Part shown: positions 17,667 through 32,866 of the stretch, piece by piece
Layout of the letters: the number at the start of each line of letters is the position of its first letter
Position numbering within the stretch: the stretch's first letter is position 1
DNA from: Bacteroidales bacterium
GTDB taxonomy: Bacteria > Bacteroidota > Bacteroidia > Bacteroidales > GCA-2748055
Direction of reading: 5' to 3'
Assembly (NCBI GenBank): GCA_029938715.1
Contig: JAOZUK010000034.1
Span: 1-33,988 of the forward strand
DNA: 33,988 bases
The notes under the pieces: model-generated
Told to the model about the DNA's origin: nothing
The model's database searches: none
The model's input: the letters and a program-made list of their open reading frames with translations, nothing else
Position numbers and translations under genes: made by a program

Positions 17667-18770
17667 TCAATCTATTTTCCCGTGCTTGTTACACAATTCG
17701 ATAAATTTTAATACCCTCTCAGGTGAAACATCATTTTGAATAATATGGGCCGGAGAGATCATATATCCACCGCCAGCCCCAAGTATATCTATTTTTTCCA
17801 TGATGTCCTTCTCAAGCTCCTCGTCTGTTCCATTGGGCAGAAGGTCCTGCTGATCAATTGCACCCCAAAATGAGAACAAGTCCCCAAAACCATCCTTCAT
17901 GTCTCTGGGAAGATGGCCCGGCACATCAGGCTGGACCGGATTAAATACCTCAAATCCCATTTCGTGGATGTCCTTTAGTAACTCACTCACAGCCCCGTCG
18001 CAATGAAGGATAGGAATAATATCAGGTTTTTTATCCTTAAAGCGCTGAATCATTTCAGTGTAAAAGGGCTTTAGTTGTTTCCTAAAGGTTTCCTGGTCCA
18101 TAATGAGGCTCTGCTGGGTGCCAAAATCATCCCCGAACCAGATGGCATCCACACCTTTATCAATCAGTCGCAATCCTATTTCAGTCTGGAACTCGGCACA
18201 TGCTTTAAAGAGTGGAATCACATACTCGGTTTCCATCATCATATCCACCAGCAGTTTCTCCATTCCTGCCAACTGGTGTGCAAGTGAAAAGACGGTCACC
18301 TCGATATCTCCAAATACCAGGTATTCATCATGGTATTTCTTCACCAGTCTATCTGCATCCCGGTAGCGACCAGGTGCATCAGGATCCGGGAAGGTATAAT
18401 TGTCAATATCTGCCTTGGTTTGTGCCTGTGCCAGTGGATAATCAACCACCTCCACATAGATATCACCCTGACGCATTTTCATTTGATACTCATTCAGCCA
18501 GTGCCCTTTTTCATCAGCTTCAATTTTGAAATCGTCCGAAACTGAGGCCCCTGTAACCACAACATCACTACCCATGGCTGTGCGCAATTCATTGGCACTG
18601 ATCCGGTAGGTTACATCTTCATAGAGGTTATCGGTATAGTGGGCTGGAATACCCAATTCCTTGCTGAAGTGGTCCGTTAACTGCCGGCACATTTCAAATT
18701 GTAAAGGAACCCGATCTGCTTTACCGGGCAATTTTCCAAATGTTTTTAGTACGCGTTCTCTTGAATTCAT
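17667..18770 (-). CDS. Uroporphyrinogen decarboxylase (URO-D) superfamily protein
   Basis: The 367-residue cytoplasmic protein starts MNSRERVLKTFGKLPGKADRVP, the usual beginning of this superfamily, and continues with KGVDAIWFGDDFGTQQSLI, IIPILHCDGAVSELL, LFSFWGAIDQQDLLP and GAGGGYMISPAHII, all standard barrel segments. The superfamily holds true haem-pathway decarboxylases and methyltransferases such as MtaA and CmuA that work with corrinoids; the sequence is closer to the general methyltransferase-like group than to HemE, but the activity is unknown. The ATG at 18770 is preferred over 18818, which would overlap the previous gene and add 16 unrelated residues. It lies 26 bp after the CBM9/PKD gene. 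No corrinoid protein gene is visible nearby. Confidence 0.82.
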   Translation of the reverse strand: MNSRERVLKTFGKLPGKADRVPLQFEMCRQLTDHFSKELGIPAHYTDNLYEDVTYRISANELRTAMGSDVVVTGASVSDDFKIEADEKGHWLNEYQMKMRQGDIYVEVVDYPLAQAQTKADIDNYTFPDPDAPGRYRDADRLVKKYHDEYLVFGDIEVTVFSLAHQLAGMEKLLVDMMMETEYVIPLFKACAEFQTEIGLRLIDKGVDAIWFGDDFGTQQSLIMDQETFRKQLKPFYTEMIQRFKDKKPDIIPILHCDGAVSELLKDIHEMGFEVFNPVQPDVPGHLPRDMKDGFGDLFSFWGAIDQQDLLPNGTDEELEKDIMEKIDILGAGGGYMISPAHIIQNDVSPERVLKFIELCNKHGKID

Positions 18771-18796
18771 TTTATACGGTATTTGTTTAAATGTAT

Positions 18797-19882
18797 CTAT
18801 TTTGTGACCACATCCCATACTTTGGAACGAACCGATTTCCCACCAGGCCCTTGTACGGTTAAAATAACAGTCCAGTTACCTTCTCTTTCATATTTATGCT
18901 GGGGATGCTGAATAGTGGAACTATTCCCGTCTCCAAAATCCCAGTGCCAGCTGTTTACTTCCCCAGCAGAGCGATCCATAAACTGTATGATTCTATCATC
19001 GCGGTCCACTTCCGTAAATGCCCAGTTGGCATCAATATCGTTTCTGTACTTCTCCTCCAGAGGCATCAGCCTGAACGCACAGAGATAGGAAGCATCCCGG
19101 ATCATCCGGATGTCATGGGCCAGGTTTCTGTAAGTCTCCTTTTTCCCGGTTCCATCGTATTCAATGGTGAGCCACGACAACCCGATCAATTCATTCTCCT
19201 TCAGACTGGATACAATGGAATTTTCAAATCCCTCAGGTGAAGCATAATCAAAAGGTGTAATATAAAACTCCATCTTAAGGGTACCACTATCACCGGGCTG
19301 AAGCTGATGGTCATAGGCCACCTGCATATGAGGATAGTCCTTGATCCAGTAAGCATTTCCCCAGATCATGGCCCAATCCTTATCCTTTACCGGGGTGAAT
19401 ATGTGGTAGTTCTGGGCGTGCCCTCCATGTCCTTTGAAATGGAGTTCGTCTGCAGATAGCCTCTCCCGGTGCAAGTTGGAAAAATTGATAAAATTCCCTC
19501 CTGAAAGATCAGCATCCACCACCAGTTCAAAAATATCCTGGGCCAGGGCCTGATCCTCAAAATCCCAGTAATCGTCATAGGCCTCCAGGTAAAAATAGAG
19601 ACGGTTGAGCCCATTTACCCAGCCCACCTTCACTTTCAGGTCATAATCGGCAGGGTCCTGAGGCACACCCTCGGCATACACTGTATTCACCAGCTGATCA
19701 GATCCGATGTAAAAAGAGTCTGGAACTATCTCCCATTCAGAAAAGTCGCCGTCAATTGAAGGAGTCAATTCCCGTGGAAACTGATAGATCATAAATTCTA
19801 CACCTGGACGGGCAAAGGATCCCAGGATCACTAAAATCAGGGAACATGTTAAGATTAATCCCACTCTGGTTATCACCTTCAT
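18797..19882 (-). CDS. Secreted CBM9-like/DOMON plus PKD-domain protein
   Basis: The 361-residue protein has a hydrophobic signal sequence (VGLILTCSLILVILGSFA). Residues about 38-270 resemble a CBM9/DOMON-like carbohydrate-binding fold: it opens with PSIDGDFSEWEIVPDSF and has LYFYLEAYDDYWDF and FELVVDADLSGGN. Residues about 295-361 are a PKD domain with the hallmark WHWDFGDGNSS and HKYEREGNWTVILTV. No catalytic domain is apparent, so a glycan-binding or accessory role is likely. It is 7 bp downstream of the 1285-residue enzyme gene, whose C-terminal domain starts with a similar DLDGGFGQWESVEAIYY, so the two probably bind the same substrate. Confidence 0.72.
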   Translation of the reverse strand: MKVITRVGLILTCSLILVILGSFARPGVEFMIYQFPRELTPSIDGDFSEWEIVPDSFYIGSDQLVNTVYAEGVPQDPADYDLKVKVGWVNGLNRLYFYLEAYDDYWDFEDQALAQDIFELVVDADLSGGNFINFSNLHRERLSADELHFKGHGGHAQNYHIFTPVKDKDWAMIWGNAYWIKDYPHMQVAYDHQLQPGDSGTLKMEFYITPFDYASPEGFENSIVSSLKENELIGLSWLTIEYDGTGKKETYRNLAHDIRMIRDASYLCAFRLMPLEEKYRNDIDANWAFTEVDRDDRIIQFMDRSAGEVNSWHWDFGDGNSSTIQHPQHKYEREGNWTVILTVQGPGGKSVRSKVWDVVTK

Positions 19883-19889
19883 TTCTTAG

Positions 19890-22800
19890 CTATTTCTCGG
19901 TAAATCGATAATTAGATCTACGCTCTGGAGCACTATCTCCTTTCAGGAAGAAATCCTCGATCTTCCCGCTCACAGGTACATTGTCGGTCCAGTGGAAATC
20001 AAATGCGGACGATTCAAGCATTTTGCGGGGGACTTCAATCATCAGCTCATCTCCTTCGTACTTGTAATTCACCTCAACCTGCCTGCCCCACTTCTCCTTC
20101 TTCCATGCCTGTAATGAAGTCGTGGTTTTTGAAGAGTTGGTTGCGTTGATCAATAGATCATACCCATTCCAGCCTGTCTCAGCACTCTGATCACTGTTGA
20201 TATATAGCAGCATCCAATGGTCGCTGGAATGAGCAGTCAGCTCCTCTGCTGTTTTTGCATAGAAATAGAAATTCTGGTCGTCTCTTGCCACCCTCGATTC
20301 AATGAGATCATTTCGGCCGGTCTGATCCACATAGGGCCCGGCCTCTCCTACCCCTTCCCCATTTCTGTGGGCCACATCACCTATGTGATCATAATAAATC
20401 GCTTCCACACTTTCCCACTGGCCAAATCCACCATCGAGATCTATGGTCTTCTCCGCACCAGCCGGAACCAACTTCTGAACACCTTTATATTTTCGCACAT
20501 TATCGATTAACTGGTAATAATAGTTATCGGTATGTCCACCCACCATGGGTTCAATATCCCGACTGTACTCCTGATTATACTGGTCGATAAAAACTTTCGT
20601 TCCTGGTCTGATTGGCCTACCGGCCATCCCAATATGCGCTCCAGGGTAAAAATCAAAAAACAGGATCCTGTCGATTAACTCCTCCTGAGCTGGCATGGTA
20701 CCCATACCTGCGGTCCATTCATTCCATCCTGTGATAAAAATAAACTCCGGGTCCACTTCCAGCGCTCGGTTCCACTGTTCCTGGAAATGAAGTCCCTGGT
20801 CGGTAAAAGGGGTGAGATCATACTGATCATTTTCAGGTTGGTAGAATTGATGATAGCTCCTTCCAATGTTGGAGAAAGGATGCTGTCCGACAGCCACAGG
20901 TACATTTTCCGGAATGCTGGGATCTTCATGCCATCCAATGGTCTGAGGGAAGTGATCCACCCAGGGCCATTCATCCTTCCCATCGTCATACCAGGGCAGG
21001 GAGGTCCATGCCCAGCTTTGCCTCAGGCTAAAGAAGTTCATGATATCCTCTTCAAATACGATTTCATTTACCAGATTCCTCTGAGGTTGTTCATGCTGTC
21101 CGTATAAGAGGAGCGGCTTCCCCTTCCACATAAACCACATATCGGGGTACATACCTTTCTTATAAAAGTCATTCCAGAGGGTATTGACCGAGATCTCACT
21201 TCCCAGGAATGCAATATCGGGAGTTTTCTCGCCTTCCTCTCTCATTTTACGCCACACTTCACAAACAGGCAGGTAAACTTCGGGGAAGGTTCTGTTGTTG
21301 GTTACGTCGAATATAATTACATCCACCCCGGCATCGGCCAGCTGGTAAGCATGTCGGCGAATGGCCCACTCCTCATTATTCAGGTAGTAGCCAATTTCGG
21401 GTTCTCCCCAGAAATGGCTCCCCGATCCCCATTGAGGATCTTCCGGATTCTCAGCCAGTATTTTGGTTACATCATAGGGCCCTTTGCCGTCAGGAGTCAG
21501 ATGTGTCATAAAATAGAACATCCCCACATACCTCTCTCCTTTCTCAGGTCCGGCCTCTCGGTACATGGCCAGTTCCCGTCCCAGTGCATCGGTAGCCACC
21601 CAGGTATCGGACATAATATCTCTGGCAGAACCATGTTTTTTCTGCTGGTCAATCTCACCCTGGTAGATCACCTGGTCCCAATCCTGAATTCCAATGGTTT
21701 CCTTGTATTGATCAAAAACTTCATCTTCGTTGGAGGCATCTGCAGCCTGGTAAACATACCAAACAGGCTTGGCCCCTCCAGGGTCATCTTCATCGTCGGG
21801 GAAGCGACGCAATCCAATGCGAAGACCACCCTCTCCCCTGTTATCAAACCAGTTGTGCCATTGAAATCCGTCAATCCCATCCAGGGTTTTGAATTTCTTC
21901 CAGGCATAGGCAAATCCTGCCGCCTGCTCGATCAAATCCTGTTCGGAGTAGGTCTTTGAATTGGTCCCGTTTTCCGACAGCCACAGAGTCCTTTTTTGCT
22001 CTCCTTTATAAAGAACCTCAGGTAGCTTGATCCAGGCATTGAGCACCTCAATATTTTTAAAAGTGATTAAAGGGGTTTCAAATGTGAAGTCCACCTTCTG
22101 GTCCAGCCAGGTTTTCGGCTCAAATAACGATTCCGGGTATGGATGTTGTGCCACAGCCCATTCAAAGTCTCCTTCTGCCTGTGTATAGTCAAGCAGAATC
22201 TCCATCAGGTCCTTGGAAGGATAGAATTTCGGATGGGAGGTCCATGCCCAGTAGTGGGTCAGTGTGACAAAAACCTCCGAATGTTGGTTATATTTTCTGG
22301 CAATGTTGTAGCACATGCGCATGGACTTCAAATAAGCGTCCATAAAAACCACGTCGGTTTTATCCCCCATATTGGTCCATACCCAACCTGCATCCACCTC
22401 GTTGTGCATGATCCAATGATGAATCCTGCCATACTTTTTATCGGGCCTGCTATACCTGCTGGCCAGGAAATCCAGGGCAGCTGCATATGCATCCACACTT
22501 TCGGGGTTGGTCATATTGGGCATGCTATAGATACCCGCGGGATCCATATCGGGATGTTGCAATAGTTTTCCAATTTCAGGATCGGGACATTGTTCGGCTT
22601 TGCTGATCAGCAGGATGGCAGCTGTAATTATATTTCGTTCGGCGCATTCCCGGAAGGTCTCATCAAACCCTTCCACTGCTTTCTTCTCAAAATAGTAGGA
22701 TTTCCCATTGTAGCTATGCTCGATTCGATCCTCAGCAGGGGTAGTATACATAAAACGGGTAAACCAGATATTCACCGTGGCACTGGTGATATCCAATTCT

Positions 22801-23747
22801 TCCAGGTCCTCCACATGACCTCGACTGGTACTAAAGCCACCCAATCCTTTCTTACTGCCTGGCTTCTCATCTTCAAGGTCATAGATGGCCTCTATTTCAT
22901 CAGCATACCTGGCATGTGATACCAGCTCAAATCCATTTTCGTTTTTCTCATAAAGGGCCCACTTGGAGAGCAGACGATCATAATTGAAACCATTACGTTT
23001 AATAAACCGTGCTTCCTCCAGGGTAAATGATCCTGGTTTCACCGGCGTAATAAACTCAAATTCCTGAATCTCGGTAACATCTGAATAAGGTGGGACCTCA
23101 GCAAGAAAAAGATCTTCAGATGCTTCAGCTGTACCTGTGATTGCTATGGATTGTTTTGAAGCCTTTACTTTTGTAAGGGTTGAATTGTAATTGTCAGACA
23201 GGTAAGAGCTCAGGTTTGCATGCAAGCGTTCATCCCTTTTTCTATTCTCCTCACGGGTAACCGCCAGCTCCTTCTCCCTCACAGTCATGGGTCTTAGTTG
23301 CAAATTCCTGATCTGGATATTAACATTCGGGCGATCACCCAGATCCAGGCGCAATACATCTCCAATTTGTCCCCATTCACCCAGCTCCAGGCTTAAATCG
23401 GCTGCAAAACTCACCCAACCTTCCGACATTCCAATGCGCCTGATCAGCTTTGAATGTTCCTGAGAAATGGGTACTCCAAACCATATATGAAGGTGATCCA
23501 AACCTTTAGGGCAGAAGTACTCAAATGAGAGTACCTGGTGTTCGGCTGGCAGGGGACGTTGCAAGGGCTGAGTATAGAGGAAAGGATCCTTACCTGTGGT
23601 TTCCATCTGAGAGACACCCCTGTTGGTGATTTCCAGGGTCATATGATGGATGCTGTCTTTTTCAATGAATAACATGGTGCTGCCCGACTGCGCAACTCCC
23701 ATCCCTGCAACAAGAAGGAGTGCGGCCAATAGTGTCAATGATTTCAT
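19890..23747 (-). CDS. Large secreted protein with two glycosidase-like barrels (DUF5722-like and WbsX/GH99-like) and a CBM9-like tail
   Basis: The 1285-residue protein has a signal peptide (ends GMGVAQ). Residues 30-155 look like a beta-sandwich. Residues about 215-690 resemble DUF5722, a clan GH-A-like TIM barrel; IMHNEVDAG (E450) and LWLSENGTNS (E592) sit as an acid/base and nucleophile pair would. Residues about 735-1085 form a WbsX/GH99-like barrel (IGYYLNNEEW, AGVDVIIFDVTNN, GKPLLLYG and FIFITGWNEWTAG with E1010). Residues about 1098-1280 are CBM9-like (LDGGFGQWESVEA). Two catalytic-type barrels in one chain suggest a bifunctional glycosidase, but neither is known to me to have a proven activity of this kind. 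It is the first gene of the minus-strand unit, with a promoter candidate just upstream and the AraC-family gene 135 bp beyond. Confidence 0.72.
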   Translation of the reverse strand: MKSLTLLAALLLVAGMGVAQSGSTMLFIEKDSIHHMTLEITNRGVSQMETTGKDPFLYTQPLQRPLPAEHQVLSFEYFCPKGLDHLHIWFGVPISQEHSKLIRRIGMSEGWVSFAADLSLELGEWGQIGDVLRLDLGDRPNVNIQIRNLQLRPMTVREKELAVTREENRKRDERLHANLSSYLSDNYNSTLTKVKASKQSIAITGTAEASEDLFLAEVPPYSDVTEIQEFEFITPVKPGSFTLEEARFIKRNGFNYDRLLSKWALYEKNENGFELVSHARYADEIEAIYDLEDEKPGSKKGLGGFSTSRGHVEDLEELDITSATVNIWFTRFMYTTPAEDRIEHSYNGKSYYFEKKAVEGFDETFRECAERNIITAAILLISKAEQCPDPEIGKLLQHPDMDPAGIYSMPNMTNPESVDAYAAALDFLASRYSRPDKKYGRIHHWIMHNEVDAGWVWTNMGDKTDVVFMDAYLKSMRMCYNIARKYNQHSEVFVTLTHYWAWTSHPKFYPSKDLMEILLDYTQAEGDFEWAVAQHPYPESLFEPKTWLDQKVDFTFETPLITFKNIEVLNAWIKLPEVLYKGEQKRTLWLSENGTNSKTYSEQDLIEQAAGFAYAWKKFKTLDGIDGFQWHNWFDNRGEGGLRIGLRRFPDDEDDPGGAKPVWYVYQAADASNEDEVFDQYKETIGIQDWDQVIYQGEIDQQKKHGSARDIMSDTWVATDALGRELAMYREAGPEKGERYVGMFYFMTHLTPDGKGPYDVTKILAENPEDPQWGSGSHFWGEPEIGYYLNNEEWAIRRHAYQLADAGVDVIIFDVTNNRTFPEVYLPVCEVWRKMREEGEKTPDIAFLGSEISVNTLWNDFYKKGMYPDMWFMWKGKPLLLYGQHEQPQRNLVNEIVFEEDIMNFFSLRQSWAWTSLPWYDDGKDEWPWVDHFPQTIGWHEDPSIPENVPVAVGQHPFSNIGRSYHQFYQPENDQYDLTPFTDQGLHFQEQWNRALEVDPEFIFITGWNEWTAGMGTMPAQEELIDRILFFDFYPGAHIGMAGRPIRPGTKVFIDQYNQEYSRDIEPMVGGHTDNYYYQLIDNVRKYKGVQKLVPAGAEKTIDLDGGFGQWESVEAIYYDHIGDVAHRNGEGVGEAGPYVDQTGRNDLIESRVARDDQNFYFYAKTAEELTAHSSDHWMLLYINSDQSAETGWNGYDLLINATNSSKTTTSLQAWKKEKWGRQVEVNYKYEGDELMIEVPRKMLESSAFDFHWTDNVPVSGKIEDFFLKGDSAPERRSNYRFTEK

Positions 23748-23764: not shown

Positions 23765-23795
23765 AAAAAGTAGACTAAATAATCCATCAGCGCAA
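23765..23795 (-). promoter_or_regulatory. Candidate promoter of the 1285-residue enzyme unit
   Basis: The minus strand reads TTG, 20 bp, TACTTTTT, one base short of the Bacteroidetes -7 box and with exactly the same spacing as the other two promoter candidates. An inverted repeat ATCCAT (23782-23787) / ATGGAT (23795-23800) overlaps the -33 end; ATGGATAA is one base away from the TGGACAA half-site found at 12287. Confidence 0.42.
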
Positions 23796-23856
23796 TGGAT
23801 AAAATGGTTCATCCTTTGCATATTTTGAGCCTGATGAGGAAAGAATCCGAATCCTG

Positions 23857-23882: not shown

Positions 23883-24758
23883 TCAGACCCTTACTGTCTT
23901 CCTGATCTCTGAGGGAGAGACCCCCAATTTGTTCTTGAAGATGCGACTGAAATAGTAGATGGACTGAAAGCCAAGTTCGTAACTGATCTCCTTAATGCTT
24001 TTATCGGTATAGAGCAACATCTCTTTAGCCCTAAGGATCTTCAGATCCAGGTGATACTGAACAGGAGGAACTCCGGTATATTTCTTAAACATCTTACGGA
24101 AGTAGGAATACCCAATGTTATTCTCTTCTGCAAAGGATTGGAAATTAATCTCAGCTTCCACATTCTCCCGAATGGTAAAACAGGCATTCTGGATAATCTT
24201 CTCCACCCTCTTACCACTGAAATCTTTCTGTTTATCCATGGAGACAATAAACCCAAGTAATTTCATAATCATTCCTGCAGCCACCTGCTGGTACCCGGGT
24301 TTTTCCTCCTTTACGTAGTTAAAAATTTTAAAATAGGTATCTATGATCTCCTCCCTGTATCCCACTTCCACCACAGAGTTCTTCTGAGTAAACCAGGGAC
24401 GTCCAAACAATTGATGAGCGATGTATCCCGAAAATCCAACATATTGCTCCACCCACCCTGTGCTCTTTTTTGGTTTGTAACGGTGCCATTCTCCAGGCTT
24501 AATAAAGATCAGGGACCCGGGAGCTATTTTGACCTTTCCCCCCTGGTTCTCATAAACTCCTGTACCTTCAGTGATATAATTAATCTGGTACTCATTCAGA
24601 GTCCTGCCATTCTCATAACTAAAATAATAACCTGAAGGATGTGTGGTTGGAGGATAGATCACACCAGGTTTAATATCAGCCCTGCCAGCGCAATTAAGGA
24701 ATAGTCCCCAGTCCTTATCCTCTTGCCCGGGATTAACGTACTTGAAAAACTCTTCCAC
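23883..24758 (-). CDS. AraC-family transcriptional regulator (cupin sensor, HTH_18)
   Basis: The 291-residue protein has a cupin-like sensing domain at about residues 20-130 (IAPGSLIFIKPGEWHRY) and a C-terminal pair of helix-turn-helix motifs at about 185-288 (FAEENNIGYSYFRKMFKKYTG and IKEISYELGFQSIYYFSRIFKN) typical of AraC/XylS. The start codon is GTG at 24758: an in-frame stop lies only six codons upstream and the nearest ATG upstream is out of frame. It is divergent from rhaT and lies between the rhamnose operon and the polysaccharide units, so it is probably the rhamnose-responsive activator of the whole locus. An AraC-type protein, RhaR, activates rhamnose genes in Bacteroides thetaiotaomicron, but I cannot tell whether this is its orthologue. 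Confidence 0.88.
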   Translation of the reverse strand: MEEFFKYVNPGQEDKDWGLFLNCAGRADIKPGVIYPPTTHPSGYYFSYENGRTLNEYQINYITEGTGVYENQGGKVKIAPGSLIFIKPGEWHRYKPKKSTGWVEQYVGFSGYIAHQLFGRPWFTQKNSVVEVGYREEIIDTYFKIFNYVKEEKPGYQQVAAGMIMKLLGFIVSMDKQKDFSGKRVEKIIQNACFTIRENVEAEINFQSFAEENNIGYSYFRKMFKKYTGVPPVQYHLDLKILRAKEMLLYTDKSIKEISYELGFQSIYYFSRIFKNKLGVSPSEIRKTVRV

Positions 24759-25056: not shown

Positions 25057-26085
25057 ATGATCGGAATTCTTCTTATTGCCATCGGAAGTATAGGTGCTGC
25101 CAGCTTCTATGTTCCCTTTAAAAAAGTTAAACAATGGTCCTGGGAATCCTACTGGATCGTACAGGGCCTGGCAGCCTGGATCATCGCCCCCTGGGTATTT
25201 GCATTAATTACGGTACCATCAGGAGAATTGATGAACATCCTGCGAGAAGCTCCTACATCAGCCAAATGGCTCACAATTATGTTCGGAGCACTATGGGGTG
25301 TGGGGAGCCTGACATTCGGGCTCAGCATAAGGTACATGGGTATTGCGTTGGGTCAGAGCATGGTGCTTGGGCTTGCAGCTGCACTGGGCACATTGATACC
25401 AGCCATTGTGAACGGTGATGACCTCTTTTCTTCCCGGGCAGGGATACTAACCATTGTGGGTGTCTCCATTGCCCTTGCCGGTATCGCTATTATCGGTTAT
25501 GCCGGGTTCCTTAGAAGTAAAGGTCTTTCAGAAGAAGAGAGAAAGGCTGCTGTGAAGGATTTTGCACTCAAGAAGGGTCTTTTTATCGCGCTTATTTCTG
25601 GTGTGATGAGTTCTGCTTTTGCCTACGGTCTGAATGGCAACGCAAGCGGGAAGCTTATCGAAAAAATGGCACTGGAACACGGCACAAATGAACTATACCT
25701 GAGTAATCCGACTTTGATCTTCATACTGTTTGGTGGATTTATAGTAAACTTAATCTATTGTGTCGGCCTGAATATTAAAAACAAGACCTATAAGGATTAT
25801 ATATCGGTCTCTGCCGGTGTCTTCCTGAACAACATTGCTTTCACTTTCCTTGCCGGATTTCTCTGGTTTCTGCAATTCCACTTCTATGGGATGGGGAAGA
25901 GTCTGGTTCCGCCAGCTATGGAAGCCTTTTCATGGAGTATCCTCATGGCCCTGGTTATTGCCATGAGTAACATATGGGGACTTTTCCTCAAGGAATGGAA
26001 AGGAGTAAGCAGGAAAACCATTGTGGTGCTTCTGATAGGGATCCTGGTATTGATCCTGTCAACATTTGTAATTAGTTTAAATTAA
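25057..26085 (+). CDS. rhaT: L-rhamnose/H+ symporter
   Basis: The 342-residue protein is an integral membrane transporter with about ten hydrophobic segments, recognised as RhaT of the drug/metabolite transporter superfamily: it begins IGSIGAASFYVPFKKVKQWSWESYW, with IAPWVFALI, LWGVGSLTFGLSIRYMGIALG, and the later GVMSSAFAYGLNGNA and NIAFTFLAGFLWFLQFHFYGMG. The E. coli protein is of nearly identical length. It brings L-rhamnose into the cytoplasm with protons. It is the first gene of the operon, behind the promoter candidate at 24971-25001, and its stop codon overlaps the Shine-Dalgarno sequence of rhaM, so the two are likely translationally linked. Confidence 0.93.
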   Translation: MIGILLIAIGSIGAASFYVPFKKVKQWSWESYWIVQGLAAWIIAPWVFALITVPSGELMNILREAPTSAKWLTIMFGALWGVGSLTFGLSIRYMGIALGQSMVLGLAAALGTLIPAIVNGDDLFSSRAGILTIVGVSIALAGIAIIGYAGFLRSKGLSEEERKAAVKDFALKKGLFIALISGVMSSAFAYGLNGNASGKLIEKMALEHGTNELYLSNPTLIFILFGGFIVNLIYCVGLNIKNKTYKDYISVSAGVFLNNIAFTFLAGFLWFLQFHFYGMGKSLVPPAMEAFSWSILMALVIAMSNIWGLFLKEWKGVSRKTIVVLLIGILVLILSTFVISLN

Positions 26086-26090
26086 GGAGG
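26085..26090 (+). promoter_or_regulatory. Strong Shine-Dalgarno sequence for rhaM
   Basis: AGGAGG lies 8 bp before the ATG of rhaM and begins at the last base of the rhaT stop codon. Strong SD sequences are uncommon in Bacteroidota, which usually rely on AT-rich leaders, so this copy stands out among the starts in this window. Confidence 0.6.
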
Positions 26091-26098
26091 AAATAGAG

Positions 26099-26416
26099 AT
26101 GCACAAGCGTATCGGTTTTAAAATGAAAGTCAATCCAGGGGTGATTGAAGAGTATAAAAAGAGACACAATGAGCTCTGGCCTGAACTTCATAAGCTGTTA
26201 AAGGACGCTGGAATTTCTGAATACAGCATATTTTTTGATGAAGACACCAATTATCTGTTTGCTTTCCAAAAGCAAGAAGGTGAGCAGGGATCACAGGATC
26301 TTGGTAAAACTGAAATAGTTAAAAAATGGTGGAAATTCATGGCAGATATCATGGAAACAAATTCCGATAATTCACCGGTTTCCATTCCTCTTGAAGAGGT
26401 TTTTTATATGGAATAG
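26099..26416 (+). CDS. rhaM: L-rhamnose mutarotase
   Basis: The 105-residue protein matches RhaM (EC 5.1.3.32), which interconverts the alpha and beta anomers of L-rhamnose so that the isomerase gets its preferred form. Family landmarks are MKVNPGVIEEYKKRHNELWPEL with the active-site His at H23, YSIFFDEDTNYLFAF, the KKWWKFMADIM helix and SDNSPVSIPLEEVFYME at the C-terminus. The length equals that of the E. coli enzyme. It lies 13 bp after rhaT and 28 bp before rhaI, in one operon. Confidence 0.95.
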   Translation: MHKRIGFKMKVNPGVIEEYKKRHNELWPELHKLLKDAGISEYSIFFDEDTNYLFAFQKQEGEQGSQDLGKTEIVKKWWKFMADIMETNSDNSPVSIPLEEVFYME

Positions 26417-26444
26417 CAACAATACTAACATTAATTAATATCAC

Positions 26445-27713
26445 ATGAGCAAATCAGATACAGTAACAAAAGCATTTGAAGCAGCTAAAGGACAGTATGC
26501 CCAGATCGGGGTAGATGTGGAAGCTGCCATGAATAAACTGGATGAATTTCCTATTTCACTTCATTGCTGGCAGGCCGATGATGTGGGGGGATTTGAAACT
26601 CCGGATTCAACACTTTCGGGAGGTGGTATTCAGGCCACCGGTAACTATCCTGGCAAGGCGACAAATATTCCTGAACACCGCATGGACCTAGAGAAATCCA
26701 TGAGTCTGATCCCTGGCAAGCAGCGACTGAACCTTCACGCCATCTATGGGGACTTCCAGGGCCAATTTGTGGACCGCGACCAGATTGAGATAAAGCATTT
26801 TCAGAGCTGGATTGACTGGGCAAAAGATCAGGGAATCGGTATGGATTTCAACTGCAGTGTATTTTCCCATGCGAAAGCCAGCGACGACCTGACCCTCTCG
26901 CACAAAAACAAAGAGATTCGTGATTTCTGGATTGAGCACACCAAAAGGTCCCGTGCCATTGGAGCCGAGATGGGGAAACAGTTAGGAAGCCCCTCAATTC
27001 ACAACATTTGGATCCAGGATGGTTCCAAAGACATTCCGGTAGACCGATATGGCCACCGTGCTATTCTAAAGGATTCGCTGGATGAGATCTTCGCAGAAAA
27101 ATTCTCCACCGACCACCTGAAGGATGCCATTGAGAGCAAGCTCTTCGGCATCGGATTGGAAGCCATGACTGTGGGTAACTCTGAGTTTTACCTGGGTTAT
27201 GCAGTGGAAAATCAGACCTTGATCTGCCTGGATAGCGGTCACTTCCATCCTACCGAGCAGGTGGGCGATAAAATTTCTTCGGTCTTACTGTTTGTACCTG
27301 AGATTCTGTTACATGTGACCAGACCCATCCGTTGGGACTCCGATCATGTGGTGACCATGAACGACGATACCATGATGATCGCACAGGAGATTGTTCGTTG
27401 CGATGCACTGGACAGAGTACATATGGGACTCGACTTTTTCGATGCCAGTATCAACAGGATCGGCGCCTATGTGGTGGGAACCAGGGCTGCTCAGCAATCT
27501 ATGTTATTTGCATTGTTGGAGCCCAGGGATATATTGCTGAAGTATGAAGAAGGTGGACAGTTTTTTGAGCGCCTGGCTATGCTGGAATTACTCAAAACAA
27601 AACCCTTTGGTGCAGTATGGGATTACTATTGTCTGAAAAATGACGTTCCCGTAGCCCAGGACTTTATCACCGAGATTCAGCAGTATGAAAAGGATGTTCT
27701 AAGCAAAAGATAG
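26445..27713 (+). CDS. rhaA: L-rhamnose isomerase
   Basis: The 422-residue protein is an RhaA/RhaI-type isomerase (EC 5.3.1.14) converting L-rhamnose to L-rhamnulose. It shows FPISLHCWQADDVGGFE near the N-terminus, PGKQRLNLHAIYGDF, GMDFNCSVFSH, IWIQDGSKDIPVDR, and the metal-binding series GLEAMTVGNSEFY, LICLDSGHFHPTE and RWDSDHVV that supplies the Glu, Asp and His ligands of the two metal sites. The length is close to that of the E. coli enzyme (419). It is the third gene of the operon. Its mRNA is followed by a TAG microsatellite and an intrinsic-terminator-like hairpin before the kinase gene. Confidence 0.96.
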   Translation: MSKSDTVTKAFEAAKGQYAQIGVDVEAAMNKLDEFPISLHCWQADDVGGFETPDSTLSGGGIQATGNYPGKATNIPEHRMDLEKSMSLIPGKQRLNLHAIYGDFQGQFVDRDQIEIKHFQSWIDWAKDQGIGMDFNCSVFSHAKASDDLTLSHKNKEIRDFWIEHTKRSRAIGAEMGKQLGSPSIHNIWIQDGSKDIPVDRYGHRAILKDSLDEIFAEKFSTDHLKDAIESKLFGIGLEAMTVGNSEFYLGYAVENQTLICLDSGHFHPTEQVGDKISSVLLFVPEILLHVTRPIRWDSDHVVTMNDDTMMIAQEIVRCDALDRVHMGLDFFDASINRIGAYVVGTRAAQQSMLFALLEPRDILLKYEEGGQFFERLAMLELLKTKPFGAVWDYYCLKNDVPVAQDFITEIQQYEKDVLSKR

Positions 27714-27735
27714 AAAGTAGTAGTTTTTTTTCATA

Positions 27736-27753
27736 TAGTAGTAGTAGTAGTAG
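27736..27753 (+). repeat. TAG trinucleotide microsatellite
   Basis: Six perfect tandem TAG units follow the stop codon of the isomerase gene (itself TAG at 27711-27713), with a shorter TAG run at 27718-27723 separated by a T-tract. In phase the units are tandem stop codons; they may vary in copy number by slippage. Confidence 0.75.
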
Positions 27754-27768
27754 TTTTAGTTGGTAAAG

Positions 27769-27806
27769 ACAGCGGCCTGGACACGTTCTTAGCCGCTGTT
27801 TTTTTT
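27769..27806 (+). terminator. Intrinsic terminator-like hairpin inside the rhamnose operon
   Basis: The perfect 8-bp stem ACAGCGGC (27769-27776) / GCCGCTGT (27792-27799) with a 15-nt loop is followed by eight Ts, the form of a rho-independent terminator. It ends 14 bp before the kinase ATG. It could terminate part of the transcripts or protect the 3' end of a rhaT-rhaM-isomerase mRNA, lowering expression of the downstream genes. Confidence 0.75.
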
Positions 27807-27820
27807 AAATCAAAATAGTT

Positions 27821-29206
27821 ATGAGCAAAGAGGTTGTATTGATATTTGACATTGGGAAAACCAATAAAAAAATCCTGGTATTTGATAAGTCACTTGGAAT
27901 TTTGCATGAAGATGAAACCATTTTCGAAGAGATCCCCGATGACGATGGATTTGATGGAGATGATATAGAAAGGCTTGAAAAGTGGATGCTGGAGGCATGT
28001 ACAAAGTATCTTCAAGATGACCGTTATATTGTACGAGGAATCAACTTCACCACCTATGGAGCCACCCTGATGTACCTGGATAGCCAGGGCAAAAGGTTAA
28101 CACCTGTCTATAACTATTTAAAGCCCATGCCGGAGGGAATTGTGGAAACCCTCTACGAAACAAATGGTGGTGAAGCTGAATTTTGCAGAAATACTGCCTC
28201 TCCCGCATTGGGTATGCTGAATTCGGGTTTCCAGGCTTTGTGGCTCAAGGAAAAAAAGCCCGAAATATTTAGCCAGGTAAAAACCATACTACACTTTCCT
28301 CAGTACCTGTCGTACCTGCTTACCGGTAAAACCTCTTCAGAGCATACCTCCATTGGATGTCATACCGGACTCTGGGATTTTGATCTTATGGCCTATCACC
28401 CATGGACAAAACAATTGGGAGAAACCCTACCAGATCCCGAACTGGTTGAGACAACTTACCCTTCCACTATTTTTGAAAATCAGATTCCGGTGGGTATAGG
28501 GATTCATGACAGCTCATCGTCGCTTGTGCCCTATTTTATGAACTCCCCTGAGGAGTTTATCCTGGTATCTACGGGAACATGGTGTATCTCCATGAATCCA
28601 TTTAATTCAGAACCTTTATCAGCCGACCAGCTAAAGAAGGATTGCCTGGCCTATATGAGTATTCAGCAGAAACCCGTTAAGTCCTCCCGTCTGTTTATGG
28701 GTCGCATTCATGATGTGAATGTGGAAAGGTTAAACGAACAGTTTGGTGTGGATAAGTCGGCCTACAAGACAGTTGCTCTGGACGAAGAGATGATCAGATC
28801 ACTAAACCAAAAGAGCACTGGTGAAAGGGTTTTCTTTCATGGGGGTGTTCCCCAGGATTATGTAGATAATTCCGTTGACAGGGAAACATTTGAAAACTTT
28901 GAAGAAGCCTATCATCAACTGGTCATCGACCTGGTGGATCTTACTGAAGAATCAATCGACCTGATAATAGACAAAGACGATACCACAAAGAATATATACA
29001 TCAGTGGTGGATTTGCCAAGAATCCCATCTTCCTTAAGCTAATGGCCAGCCACTTCCCTGACAAAAAAGTCTACACTTCGGAAGTTGCCAACGCCACATC
29101 CCTTGGTGCAGCACTGGTATTATGGAAGGGCATTGATACTGAATTTAATCCTGCCATTGACCTGGGATTGAAGTCCTTTAACGGAGACCCATCCCTGGTT
29201 GGGTAA
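27821..29206 (+). CDS. FGGY-family sugar kinase, probable L-rhamnulokinase
   Basis: The 461-residue protein is an FGGY kinase. The first phosphate-binding loop is LIFDIGKTNKKILVFD (D10), D230 in GIHDSSSSLVPYF fits the catalytic aspartate, VSTGTWCISMNPF is the conserved adenosine-side loop, and KNIYISGGFAKNP the second ATP segment. It is shorter than E. coli RhaB (489) and has its own sequence character, so it may belong to a Bacteroidota type of rhamnulose/fuculose kinase. Between the isomerase and aldolase genes it is most likely to phosphorylate L-rhamnulose at O-1. It follows the hairpin at 27769-27806 and may be expressed at a lower level than the genes before it. Confidence 0.87.
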   Translation: MSKEVVLIFDIGKTNKKILVFDKSLGILHEDETIFEEIPDDDGFDGDDIERLEKWMLEACTKYLQDDRYIVRGINFTTYGATLMYLDSQGKRLTPVYNYLKPMPEGIVETLYETNGGEAEFCRNTASPALGMLNSGFQALWLKEKKPEIFSQVKTILHFPQYLSYLLTGKTSSEHTSIGCHTGLWDFDLMAYHPWTKQLGETLPDPELVETTYPSTIFENQIPVGIGIHDSSSSLVPYFMNSPEEFILVSTGTWCISMNPFNSEPLSADQLKKDCLAYMSIQQKPVKSSRLFMGRIHDVNVERLNEQFGVDKSAYKTVALDEEMIRSLNQKSTGERVFFHGGVPQDYVDNSVDRETFENFEEAYHQLVIDLVDLTEESIDLIIDKDDTTKNIYISGGFAKNPIFLKLMASHFPDKKVYTSEVANATSLGAALVLWKGIDTEFNPAIDLGLKSFNGDPSLVG

Positions 29207-29219
29207 ATAACTGATTAAC

Positions 29220-30515
29220 ATGGAAAAACTAGATACGCTCTTACAGCATCCCCGTGATCAGATTACGGAGATTATAAAACGAATCTACAACGCCGGATTA
29301 ACCACAACCTCCGGCGGCAATATATCCATTAAAGATGGGGAAGGAAACATCTGGGTAACGCCCAGTGCCATCGATAAAGGAACCCTTCAGCGGAAAGATA
29401 TTGTTCGTGTAAAACCCGATGGCAGCGTTGTTGGGCATTACAAACCATCTTCCGAATTCCCCTTCCACAAGGCCATATATGATGCAAGACCTGAGATCAA
29501 GGCAGTGATCCATGCTCACCCCCCTGCGCTGGTTTCATTCAGCATTGTCAGGAAGCTTCCCAATATGAACATCATTCCACAGGCCAAACATATTTGCGGT
29601 CCCATAGGATATGCTCCATATGCCATCCCTGGTGGAGAAGAGCTGGGTAAGAAAATTGCAACAGAATTTGAAAAGGGAGTAAATGCAGTGATCATGGAGA
29701 ACCATGGAACAGTAGTGGGTGGTACCGACCTGAAAGATGCATATGTCCGGTTTGAAACCCTGGAGTTTTCTGCCAGAACCATTATCAATGCCAGTACCAT
29801 TGGAACTCCCTCCTATCTGGCTGAAGATCAAATTGAAGCATTTGAGTCACAGATACCCAATGATGTACTTGAAATGACCTCTGTTGAGCACACCGAAAAG
29901 GAGCTCTCACTTCGCCGTCACATCAGTACATTGGTAAAGCGCTCATGCAAACAGGGACTGATGATTTCCTCCTATGGAACGGTTTCTACCAGGTTGAAGG
30001 GAAATGATTTTCTGATCACACCCCGCAATGTCCCAAGGTGGGAAATAGAATTGGAAGATATCGTTCAAATTGCGGATGGCAAACGGGAACCCGGAAAATT
30101 ACCCAGCAGGGCTGTGAAAATTCATCAGCAAATCTACAGGGAGAATCCACATGTGAACTCCATAATTCTTACACAGCCGCAACATATTATGGCTTATGGG
30201 GTTTCTGGAAAAAAGCTGGATGTGAGAACCATCCCGGAAAGTTGGATATTCCTGCAGGATATTCCCATGGTAGAGTTTGGAGAACAATTTGATGGATCAG
30301 AAGAATTTGCCAAATTGTTTACTCCCGACACTCCTGCGGTTATCATTAAAAATGATTCCATTATTGTAACAGGAGACAAGCTTCTCCAGACTTTTGACCG
30401 TCTGGAGGTGGCTGAATTCAGTGCTCAGTCATTGATCATGGGGCATCCGCTGGGTGACCTGGTTCCCATAAATGAAGATCAGATTGAAGAGCTGCGCAAG
30501 AAATTTTTAACCTGA
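29220..30515 (+). CDS. Tandem class II aldolase/adducin-domain protein, probable rhamnulose-1-phosphate aldolase
   Basis: The 431-residue protein contains two class II aldolase domains. The first (about 10-205) is complete: E79 in SSEFPFHKAIYD, the zinc pair H98-A-H100 and H162 in MENHGTVVGG. The second (about 225-431) keeps the fold (GLMISSYGTVSTRL, KIHQQIYRENPHVNSIIL) but lacks the active-site residues: R297 replaces the Glu, TQPQH stands where HxH should be, and KNDS replaces ENHG. It should cleave L-rhamnulose-1-phosphate to dihydroxyacetone phosphate and L-lactaldehyde, with the C-terminal half serving a structural or regulatory role. It is 13 bp after the kinase gene and 14 bp before the GH78 gene. 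No lactaldehyde-handling enzyme is present in the window. Confidence 0.85.
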   Translation: MEKLDTLLQHPRDQITEIIKRIYNAGLTTTSGGNISIKDGEGNIWVTPSAIDKGTLQRKDIVRVKPDGSVVGHYKPSSEFPFHKAIYDARPEIKAVIHAHPPALVSFSIVRKLPNMNIIPQAKHICGPIGYAPYAIPGGEELGKKIATEFEKGVNAVIMENHGTVVGGTDLKDAYVRFETLEFSARTIINASTIGTPSYLAEDQIEAFESQIPNDVLEMTSVEHTEKELSLRRHISTLVKRSCKQGLMISSYGTVSTRLKGNDFLITPRNVPRWEIELEDIVQIADGKREPGKLPSRAVKIHQQIYRENPHVNSIILTQPQHIMAYGVSGKKLDVRTIPESWIFLQDIPMVEFGEQFDGSEEFAKLFTPDTPAVIIKNDSIIVTGDKLLQTFDRLEVAEFSAQSLIMGHPLGDLVPINEDQIEELRKKFLT

Positions 30516-30529
30516 CAGGAGATGCCATT

Positions 30530-32866
30530 ATGAAGAGGCCCATATACAGAATCGTTTGGGTTTTGCTTTCGCTGTTTATGGTCCATCAAGGGTATTCTCA
30601 GGATCTTCTCTGGACCAATGAAGGGGATCCGGATGGGTTTGTTGACAGGCATGTGGCATTCCGGGGGAACTTCTCTCTTAATGAAGAGACTGAAATAGAG
30701 GTTCACATATCCGGAGCATCGTGGTACCGGGTTTGGTTGGACGGAGTTCAGTTGACCGAAGGGCCTGACCGGTATAGCCCGGAATTCCCCACATACCAGG
30801 TCAGAAAACTAAGAATACCTGCCGGGGATCACATCATAGCCATTCAGGTACACAGCGAAGGGGTGGATACCCGCATGTTGCAGGGGATTAAACCTTTCCT
30901 CTATTGTGATCTCCTGGCTGATGGGATAAAAAAGAAATTAGGTTGGAAATGCCTCGAACTGTCAGGATACGCCCCTCAATTGAGAAGGGTCAGCGCCCAA
31001 TTCGGATGGCTTGAGTGGTGCGATACCCGATTGCAACCCGATGGCTGGATCAATGCCAATTTTAATGATACAGATTGGGGCCAGCCCATACCTGTATCCC
31101 GTAAGCTGGGGGAATTTACGCCCTCGTTGATTTCTGAGGTTCAAAACCTTGCCACCTCCTTCGAAATCGCAGGATCAGGACCGCTGGCCAGCTATTATGG
31201 TTACGAAACAGACAATCCGTCGGCCAGGTTTTTCCTGCGCGACCTTGAGTGCAAAAGCGTCCCTCCCCAGGGAGTTTGGAAAAGATATGACCTTGGAAAG
31301 ATCAAACTTGTTTCACCCCAATTCATCCTCGATCTTCCCCAGGGAGCCATGGTGGAATTTGCTTTCTGCGAAGCACTGCAACACAACCGGGTCTCTCCCT
31401 GGATCAACCTGTCGGTAAGTGACTCATATAACATGGTCCATTTCAAAGCCCGGGGTGGCGTACAGGTTTTCCATCCCCTGACACCCAAAGCCGGCCGATT
31501 TGTGGAGATGCATATTATCGCTCCTCCTGATCAGATCCATGTAATGGAAGAGCAGTTCCTCGAACGAGCATACCATATGAAGGCTGATGGGGATTTTCAA
31601 AGTGACGACCCATTACTCAACCGGATCTGGCAACTGGGTGCCGAGACCTACATGTCCTGCGCCGAAGATGCCCTGGTGGACAATCCCACCCGTGAGCGCG
31701 GACAATGGATGGGTGATGTGGGTATTGTGGGTTTACAGATTGGTGCTGCCACCTTCTCTGACCTTGGAATCATTAAAAGCGGTTTAAAACATTTTGCCCA
31801 GAGTGCACGTGAAGATGGAATGGTGGCCGGACTGGCACCGGGAAACATCGGATATCTCTCTACGTTTGCTGCCCTGTGGACCAATGCCAACCTCTATTAT
31901 TGGAAATCCACCGGCGACCGGTCCCTAATGGTTGAACTCTATCCTTATGCTGAAAATAACATAGCCGCATTTGAAAAATACAGAACAAGTGATGGCATCA
32001 GTGAGGATGCAGGCTGGGCATTTGTGGACTGGGGTTATGTGCCCAATGAAGGGGAGACTGATATGGGTCTCAACCTGATCTACTATGATGCATTAAGAGC
32101 CATGATCACCTGGTCGCAAGCCATGGGCAAAGAATCCAGGGTGGTGTACTATAGGGATCTTGCCCACCAGATGAAAACGATTATTGAAAGTTACTATGCT
32201 CCTTACCTGCAAGCTTCAGAGGTGAACTGGGTAGGTATTGGATACCACCGCACCGTACTGGGAATGCGCAATGGTTTTATTCCTGGTGAATTAACGGAGG
32301 AAGCCATCAACTATATCAAGCAGCACATGCTTAACTGCTTCCCCAACAATGAGAATGCACCACGACTCTCCGATCCGGCAGCCAACAATCCCCAGCTTAT
32401 CACCCCCTACTTTGCACACTATGCCTATCCCCTGCTAATTGAAAATGGAGAGATGGAATTTATCCTGGATCAGTACAAAACCTGCTGGGGCTGGATGCTT
32501 GACCAGGGGATCACCACCTGTACTGAGGTCTTCGATACCCGTTGGTCTCATTGTCACCAGTGGGCCGGATGTCCCACCTGGCAACTATCAAGGTATGGCC
32601 TTGGATTGCATCCTGCTTTCGACAGAGCAGAGAATTCATTTGATCTGAATCTGGTAACAGGTTATCTTGAAGAAGCTTCAGGGAAAGTTCCCCTGCCCGA
32701 CGGACAAGTCATCCATATGAACTGGAAAAAATCCGGCGGTCAGATTAAATATACAATAGATACCCCTGTAAAAATTGAAGTATACATGGATGATCCTGAA
32801 AAAGCAGGAAAGGTTAAGAAGATGACCATCAAGAATACCAGGACCTTCCACATCCCAGTAGAATGA
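30530..32866 (+). CDS. GH78 alpha-L-rhamnosidase (secreted or periplasmic)
   Basis: The 778-residue protein has a signal peptide (MKRPIYRIVWVLLSLFMVHQ, ending GYSQ). Residues about 25-345 hold beta-sandwich domains, including SWYRVWLDGVQLTEGPDRYSP, the usual N-terminal module of GH78. The (alpha/alpha)6 barrel (about 350-690) has the family signature D384-N-P-T-R388-E389-R390-x2-W393-x-G395-D396, E666 in TTCTEVFDT as the second catalytic glutamate, and WSHCHQWAGCPTW; a C-terminal beta domain follows. It should remove alpha-L-rhamnose from oligosaccharides. It is placed in the rhamnose catabolic operon, 14 bp after the aldolase gene, and its stop codon overlaps the start of the sulfatase gene (ATGA), so release and use of rhamnose are coexpressed. 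Confidence 0.9.
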   Translation: MKRPIYRIVWVLLSLFMVHQGYSQDLLWTNEGDPDGFVDRHVAFRGNFSLNEETEIEVHISGASWYRVWLDGVQLTEGPDRYSPEFPTYQVRKLRIPAGDHIIAIQVHSEGVDTRMLQGIKPFLYCDLLADGIKKKLGWKCLELSGYAPQLRRVSAQFGWLEWCDTRLQPDGWINANFNDTDWGQPIPVSRKLGEFTPSLISEVQNLATSFEIAGSGPLASYYGYETDNPSARFFLRDLECKSVPPQGVWKRYDLGKIKLVSPQFILDLPQGAMVEFAFCEALQHNRVSPWINLSVSDSYNMVHFKARGGVQVFHPLTPKAGRFVEMHIIAPPDQIHVMEEQFLERAYHMKADGDFQSDDPLLNRIWQLGAETYMSCAEDALVDNPTRERGQWMGDVGIVGLQIGAATFSDLGIIKSGLKHFAQSAREDGMVAGLAPGNIGYLSTFAALWTNANLYYWKSTGDRSLMVELYPYAENNIAAFEKYRTSDGISEDAGWAFVDWGYVPNEGETDMGLNLIYYDALRAMITWSQAMGKESRVVYYRDLAHQMKTIIESYYAPYLQASEVNWVGIGYHRTVLGMRNGFIPGELTEEAINYIKQHMLNCFPNNENAPRLSDPAANNPQLITPYFAHYAYPLLIENGEMEFILDQYKTCWGWMLDQGITTCTEVFDTRWSHCHQWAGCPTWQLSRYGLGLHPAFDRAENSFDLNLVTGYLEEASGKVPLPDGQVIHMNWKKSGGQIKYTIDTPVKIEVYMDDPEKAGKVKKMTIKNTRTFHIPVE

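Follow-up and report, generated by a model that had tools for sequence, protein, structure and literature searches.

Glycosidases of clan GH-A share a layout in which an Asn-Glu pair, carrying the acid/base, follows strand 4 of the barrel and the glutamate that acts as the nucleophile sits at strand 7. Here we describe a gene from a Bacteroidales bacterium that is a natural fusion of an uncharacterized family of this clan, DUF5722, with a family that has the fold of glycoside hydrolase (GH) family 99 and half of the known catalytic dyad. GH99 and GH71 enzymes use two acids, arranged as ExxE or DxxE (DxxE in GH71), and replacing either acid of the GH71 dyad lowers activity by 200–15,000-fold (PMC12394665). 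The gene lies on contig JAOZUK010000034.1 (assembly GCA_029938715.1), positions 1–33,988 of which are the window of this study (Table 1).

Results and Discussion

The First Barrel

The fused gene is a single open reading frame (ORF) of 1285 codons at positions 19890–23747 of the minus strand, running from an ATG to a stop codon without internal stops. A 1285-residue protein had been noted here in a preliminary description of this DNA that was made from the sequence alone. The claim of that description that the chain contains two different glycosidase-type barrels is supported by a DUF5722 profile match in the first half and by a GH99-like profile match and predicted fold in the second. Upon inspection, the signal-peptide region contains no lipobox cysteine, and the protein is probably exported.

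Residues 295–693 match the whole model of Pfam DUF5722 (PF18989) with an E-value of 2.7e-126 and 422.1 bits, over the curated cut-off of 30.5, which bears out the assignment proposed from sequence. Pfam detected no other family in this region at E ≤ 1, and a search of 5.39 million papers found no mention of DUF5722. Among 84,980 named genomes we obtained 137 relatives and kept 80 of them. Members of the family turned up in just 2 of 296 sampled genomes of the phylum, which makes it rare, and in most relatives it stands alone as a protein of 700–750 residues. These stand-alone proteins share the N-terminal part of the window protein, but most stop near residue 700, where the window protein continues into a second barrel.

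An AlphaFold2 model of residues 1–700, built from 60 relatives, reached a mean pLDDT (predicted local distance difference test) of 91.8 and contains a (β/α)8 barrel of the clan GH-A type. All 999 compared chains of the PDB gave Z ≥ 5. The best matches are GH39 (5jvk; VIA Z 24.9, 3.3 Å over 305 residues), GH1, PslG (9g17 and 4zn2, grouped here with GH39) and GH10. Despite this clear fold, neither the whole protein nor a first-half profile matched any PDB entry in sequence searches, and identity of the window first half to clan GH-A families is about 10–17%. By our own reading of the model, the barrel strands span residues 300–303, 322–328, 374–380, 444–447, 491–496, 530–534, 588–593, and 627–631. 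This places N449-E450 directly behind strand 4 and E592 within strand 7, the arrangement characteristic of the clan. These two glutamates, 142 residues apart, had been singled out in the preliminary description as a plausible acid/base and nucleophile pair that close homologues should retain. All 60 relatives retain both residues, including records titled Planctomycetota, Akkermansiaceae, Chthonomonadales, and Lentisphaerae. Layout and invariance together support the prediction that the first barrel is a retaining clan GH-A glycosidase with E450 as acid/base and E592 as nucleophile; they do not identify its substrate.

The Second Barrel

Since Pfam found nothing significant in the second half of the window protein, we analyzed this part through its relatives. 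A profile of 42 second-half sequences, which also underlies the conservation counts given below, retrieved GH99 endo-α-mannosidases from the PDB (best E 7e-6) and aligned the NEWTAG motif of the window protein to NEWHEG of GH99. The predicted structure (pLDDT 80, predicted template modelling score 0.88) is a GH99-type barrel. The 29 top-ranked entries (Z 15.6–16.7, root-mean-square deviation 3.8–5.2 Å) are all GH99 proteins except for 5ngw, a "glycoside hydrolase-like protein" (Z 15.8). Known members of GH99 are endo-α-1,2-mannosidases/mannanases (4acz, 6zdc, and the Bacteroides xylanisolvens enzyme BxGH99). Next in rank is the GH71 α-1,3-glucanase 9fnf (Z 13.4). Like the window protein, GH71 also packs with a β-sandwich domain (PMC12394665).

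The active site departs from both families. E1010 of the GWNEW motif is the equivalent of E333, the first dyad glutamate of BxGH99, and is present in 42/42 sequences. The position of the second glutamate, E336 in BxGH99, is occupied by residue 1013, which is alanine in 41 sequences, including the window protein, and threonine in one. The protein thus has ExxA in place of the ExxE of GH99 or the DxxE of GH71. It also differs from GH99 by a long insertion behind the NEW strand and by the extra C-terminal sandwich. Against PF16317 (GH99) the window second half scores 18.3 bits, under the curated cut-off of 33, and 14 of the 42 members give weak matches (best E 3e-6). We also searched the class for GH99 proper, but its members were too scarce there to compare profiles. 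Given its incomplete dyad, we do not assign the second barrel to GH99; in the predicted structure it is a distant GH99/GH71 relative by fold that keeps only the first dyad acid. The preliminary description had likened it to WbsX (PF14307) as well. This part of the proposal was dropped, since WbsX gave no match to the window protein at E ≤ 1 and does not appear among the families listed for the 42 members.

Because the second dyad acid is missing, this barrel cannot run the published GH99/GH71 mechanism unchanged. That both barrels are classical enzymes, the second acting by the GH99 mechanism through E1010 as first proposed, is consistent with the fold and with the invariance of this glutamate, but the requirement for two acids in both families makes it very unlikely. 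A different partner is conceivable. D809, D814, and D1055 are each conserved in 42/42 sequences, and D1074 in 41/42. From its position in the model at the end of strand 3, D814 is a plausible candidate for the replacement acid.

The same substitution raises the question as to whether the second barrel is an enzyme at all. It could be a pseudo-enzyme, with the first barrel as the only catalyst and the second barrel and C-terminal sandwich keeping the glycan in place for it. The loss of the second dyad glutamate from every one of the 42 sequences, the drastic effect of dyad substitutions in GH71 (PMC12394665), and the binding-type domain at the end of this half all argue in this direction. Against it stand the strict invariance of E1010 and three aspartates and the occurrence of the second module as a separate protein, in the genome of the window and in many others, which fits an enzyme better than a helper. 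On balance we consider a purely binding role possible, but rather unlikely.

The C-Terminal Domain

The last ~190 residues form a predicted β-sandwich similar in fold to the CBM74 region of Sas6 (Z 11.5). The preliminary description had called this domain CBM9-like. The CBM9_1 profile gives a weak hint of this, matching in 1 of 13 members (E 0.013). The domain probably binds glycan.

Fusion and Gene Pairing

The preliminary description knew of no characterized enzyme with two such barrels. The architecture itself is not unique: the in-frame fusion occurs in six Bacteroidota genomes or metagenome-assembled genomes (MAGs), namely the window, a Bacteroidales MAG (L025), Arenibacter sp. F26102 (L026), a Flavobacterium MAG (L028, the contig of which stops within the second half), Echinicola pacifica (L030), and the flavobacterial genome G511 (L106). 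In other genomes the modules are encoded by adjacent genes. Three Alistipes loci (L046, L047, L092) and one from Tannerella (L052) contain such pairs at about 56–62% identity, with a signal-peptide-like start on the second gene, and in many other Bacteroidota more distant relatives of the second half adjoin DUF5722 genes. Hence the pairing is a recurrent gene neighborhood, of which the window contains the fused form.

Adjacent genes in Alistipes and Tannerella, and the frame shift between the halves at the A9 tracts of two flavobacteria, could suggest that the fused ORF is an artefact of assembly or sequencing. This explanation is contradicted by L025, L026, and L030 in particular: five other assemblies contain the in-frame fusion, including L025, an independent MAG that is 78–90% identical to the window. 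The junction in the window is only an A6 tract, and the second half does not start with a signal peptide. We reject an artefact as extremely improbable.

The genome of the window (945 contigs, 97% complete) encodes the whole fused protein once. It also contains a stand-alone second half with 68% identity near a sulfatase gene and several more distant copies. In a tree of second halves, all fused and frame-split copies fall into one clade (support 99/97), which also holds two copies from the order of the window without DUF5722 fusion, one of them from the same genome. The fusion is patchy, since only 1 of 18 genomes in the genus of the fused genome G497 (probably the L026 genome) carries the gene. 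Both halves evolve under purifying selection, with differences at 0.51–0.67 of third codon positions and 0.08–0.36 of first and second positions.

Proteins of the URO-D family (uroporphyrinogen decarboxylase-like) recur beside second-half copies in this genome, at 17667–18818 (−) in the window (PF01208 by Pfam), L020:15501–16553 (24% similarity to the former), and L019:1–1219 (recognized by eye).

Frame-Shifted Relatives

Two flavobacteria, Ulvibacterium marinum and G103, encode the halves in the 0 and −1 frames, joined at an A9 tract. The first ORF ends with GGA AAA AAA AAC TGA in U. marinum and with GGA AAA AAA AAG CCC AAA CCT TAA in G103; both sites provide an in-phase slippery heptamer with an overlapping −1 ORF. 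No ATG near the start of the second half and no signal peptide was found in the −1 frame of either genome. Purifying selection acts on the downstream halves as it does elsewhere in the gene, and tree neighbors of both are fused in frame with an A10 tract (G511 for U. marinum; L028, in the first-half tree, for G103). The G103 heptamer, A AAA AAG, is the slip site of E. coli dnaX (PMC5009743). Known parallels for these two loci are the GH29 α-L-fucosidase gene fucA of S. solfataricus, a split glycosidase gene whose parts are rejoined through −1 slippage at an A-rich heptamer (PMC8037382), and Thermus dnaX, from which transcriptional slippage gives short and long products (PMC5009743). In contrast, the window gene is in frame, and the 80 nucleotides downstream of the two slip sites show no unusual stimulatory RNA structure (z-scores 0.42 and 0.40 against shuffles). 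A/T runs of at least nine are no great rarity in either genome, with 6 such runs per 90 kb examined in G103 and 2 per 22 kb in U. marinum, which leaves room for chance placement or a base-call error. G658 has a matching junction and contig coordinates that agree as well, but is probably the same assembly as the U. marinum locus (L043) and provides no independent confirmation of the tract. Slippage, phase variation, recent inactivation, or a base-call error are all possible origins of the frame split.

The G103 gene cluster also encodes two very long DUF5722 proteins (L012, L013) of a different architecture, with open frames of about 1400 residues, repeated N-terminal β domains, and a C-terminal tail that resembles a type IX sorting domain.

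Genomic Context

The gene had been described as the first in its transcription unit. This is plausible but unproven, because a gene for an AraC-type regulator precedes it in the same orientation, at a distance of 135 bp. The intervening palindrome occurs once, at the place from which the search pattern was derived. Homologues of the PKD-domain protein encoded downstream (54–58% identical) accompany DUF5722 genes in the three Alistipes loci, L027, and L035, with 57% identity for one close to the Alistipes pair; this protein may be a third conserved partner of the pair.

Besides a divergent L-rhamnose operon, the window holds sulfatase genes and a second GH78-like gene. Rhamnose catabolism genes are found near the fused gene or the pair in the window, L025, U. 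marinum, and G103, with genes for a rhamnose isomerase-like protein and a bifunctional rhamnulose-1-phosphate aldolase in the latter two. Rhamnosidase genes occur nearby in G103 (GH106) and Echinicola (GH78). The genome of the window contains about 20 GH78-type matches and several of the GH88/105 type. Since genes for rhamnose catabolism, rhamnosidases, and sulfatases flank the gene, we infer that the substrate is a sulfated L-rhamnose-containing glycan. The neighbors favor this class in general, and the ulvan-type substrate of the preliminary description is possible.

Table 1. Positions of the Fused Gene, Its Domains and Key Residues, and Associated Features
Feature	Position	Strand	Basis or remark
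Fused two-barrel gene, 1285 residues	19890..23747	(-)	ATG start, stop at 19890-19892; stop-free ORF; also in frame in L025, L026, L028, L030, L106
Probable type I signal peptide, residues about 1-20, MKSLTLLAALLLVAGMGVAQ	23688..23747	(-)	Read off the sequence; N-terminus of low confidence in model
N-terminal β-rich domain, long helix 156-184, small β domain (residues 21-294)	22866..23687	(-)	Predicted secondary structure
DUF5722 domain, clan GH-A type (β/α)8 barrel, residues 295-693	21669..22865	(-)	Pfam; fold closest to GH39
E450 (HNE motif), predicted acid/base	22398..22400	(-)	60/60; predicted strands
E592, predicted nucleophile	21972..21974	(-)	60/60; predicted strands
Inter-module linker, residues 694-708, with A6 (AAA AAA)	21624..21668	(-)	A9/A10 tracts or gene boundary at same place in relatives
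GH99/GH71-like barrel, residues 709-1093	20469..21623	(-)	Profile match to GH99 PDB chains; predicted fold
E1010, counterpart of first GH99 dyad Glu	20718..20720	(-)	42/42; profile alignment
A1013, at position of second GH99 dyad Glu	20709..20711	(-)	Ala 41/42, Thr 1/42
D814, candidate replacement catalytic acid	21306..21308	(-)	42/42; end of barrel strand 3 (module strand 111-116)
D1055, second candidate replacement acid	20583..20585	(-)	42/42; long segment behind NEW strand
C-terminal β-sandwich, residues 1094-1285, carbohydrate-binding-like (CBM74/CBM9-like)	19893..20468	(-)	VIA Z 11.5 to Sas6 CBM74
Exported 361-residue protein with PKD domain	18797..19882	(-)	Next gene, 8 bp downstream
AraC-type regulator gene	23883..24758	(-)	Upstream of fused gene
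Imperfect palindrome GCAAAGGATGAACCATTTTATCCATTGCG (GCAAAGGATG..ATCCATTGC), candidate regulator site/operator	23791..23819	(-)	Between AraC-type gene and fused gene; partly conserved in L025
Divergent L-rhamnose operon: RhaT, RhaM, RhaA, FGGY kinase, class II aldolase-like protein, GH78-like rhamnosidase	25057..32866	(+)	
A9 junction, U. marinum	L043:12055-12064		Slippery heptamer A AAA AAC
A9 junction, G103	L014:18567-18576		Slippery heptamer A AAA AAG

Proposed Function

The explanation we favor, with a confidence slightly better than even, is that the gene encodes a fused exported glycosidase for a sulfated L-rhamnose polysaccharide. The protein would be exported, probably to the periplasm, where the first barrel would cleave the glycan by a retaining GH-A mechanism using E450 and E592. 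The second barrel would most likely act on the same glycan, with E1010 and a different partner (D814 or D1055) or by some other mechanism, and the C-terminal sandwich would probably bind the glycan. Fusion would physically link a pair of activities for which related bacteria use neighboring genes.

Three points weigh against this proposal. Biochemical evidence on either half was not found in the searched sources. The model of the second half is of moderate confidence (pLDDT 80 overall, with many loops at 60–70). Finally, a gene of the GH92 α-mannosidase family follows the DUF5722/GH99-like pair in Alistipes (L046:16297–18609), so that the pair may in some cases act on something other than a rhamnose glycan, with a hint of another substrate in gut bacteria.

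A bolder version is unlikely. It holds that the second barrel represents a new GH family on the GH99 fold, acting on a rhamnose glycan with E1010 and another partner such as D814 or D1055, and that in some marine flavobacteria the A9/A10 linker tract determines, through slippage or phase variation, how much of the first enzyme is made on its own relative to the fusion.

Conclusions

DUF5722, a family without mention in the searched literature, carries the full active-site signature of clan GH-A across several phyla. Fusion and gene pairing tie it to a GH99-like module beside rhamnosidases and sulfatases, and so provide a concrete, testable class of substrates. The second module offers a test case for whether an enzyme with the GH99 fold works, or fails, without an acid that GH99 and GH71 need.

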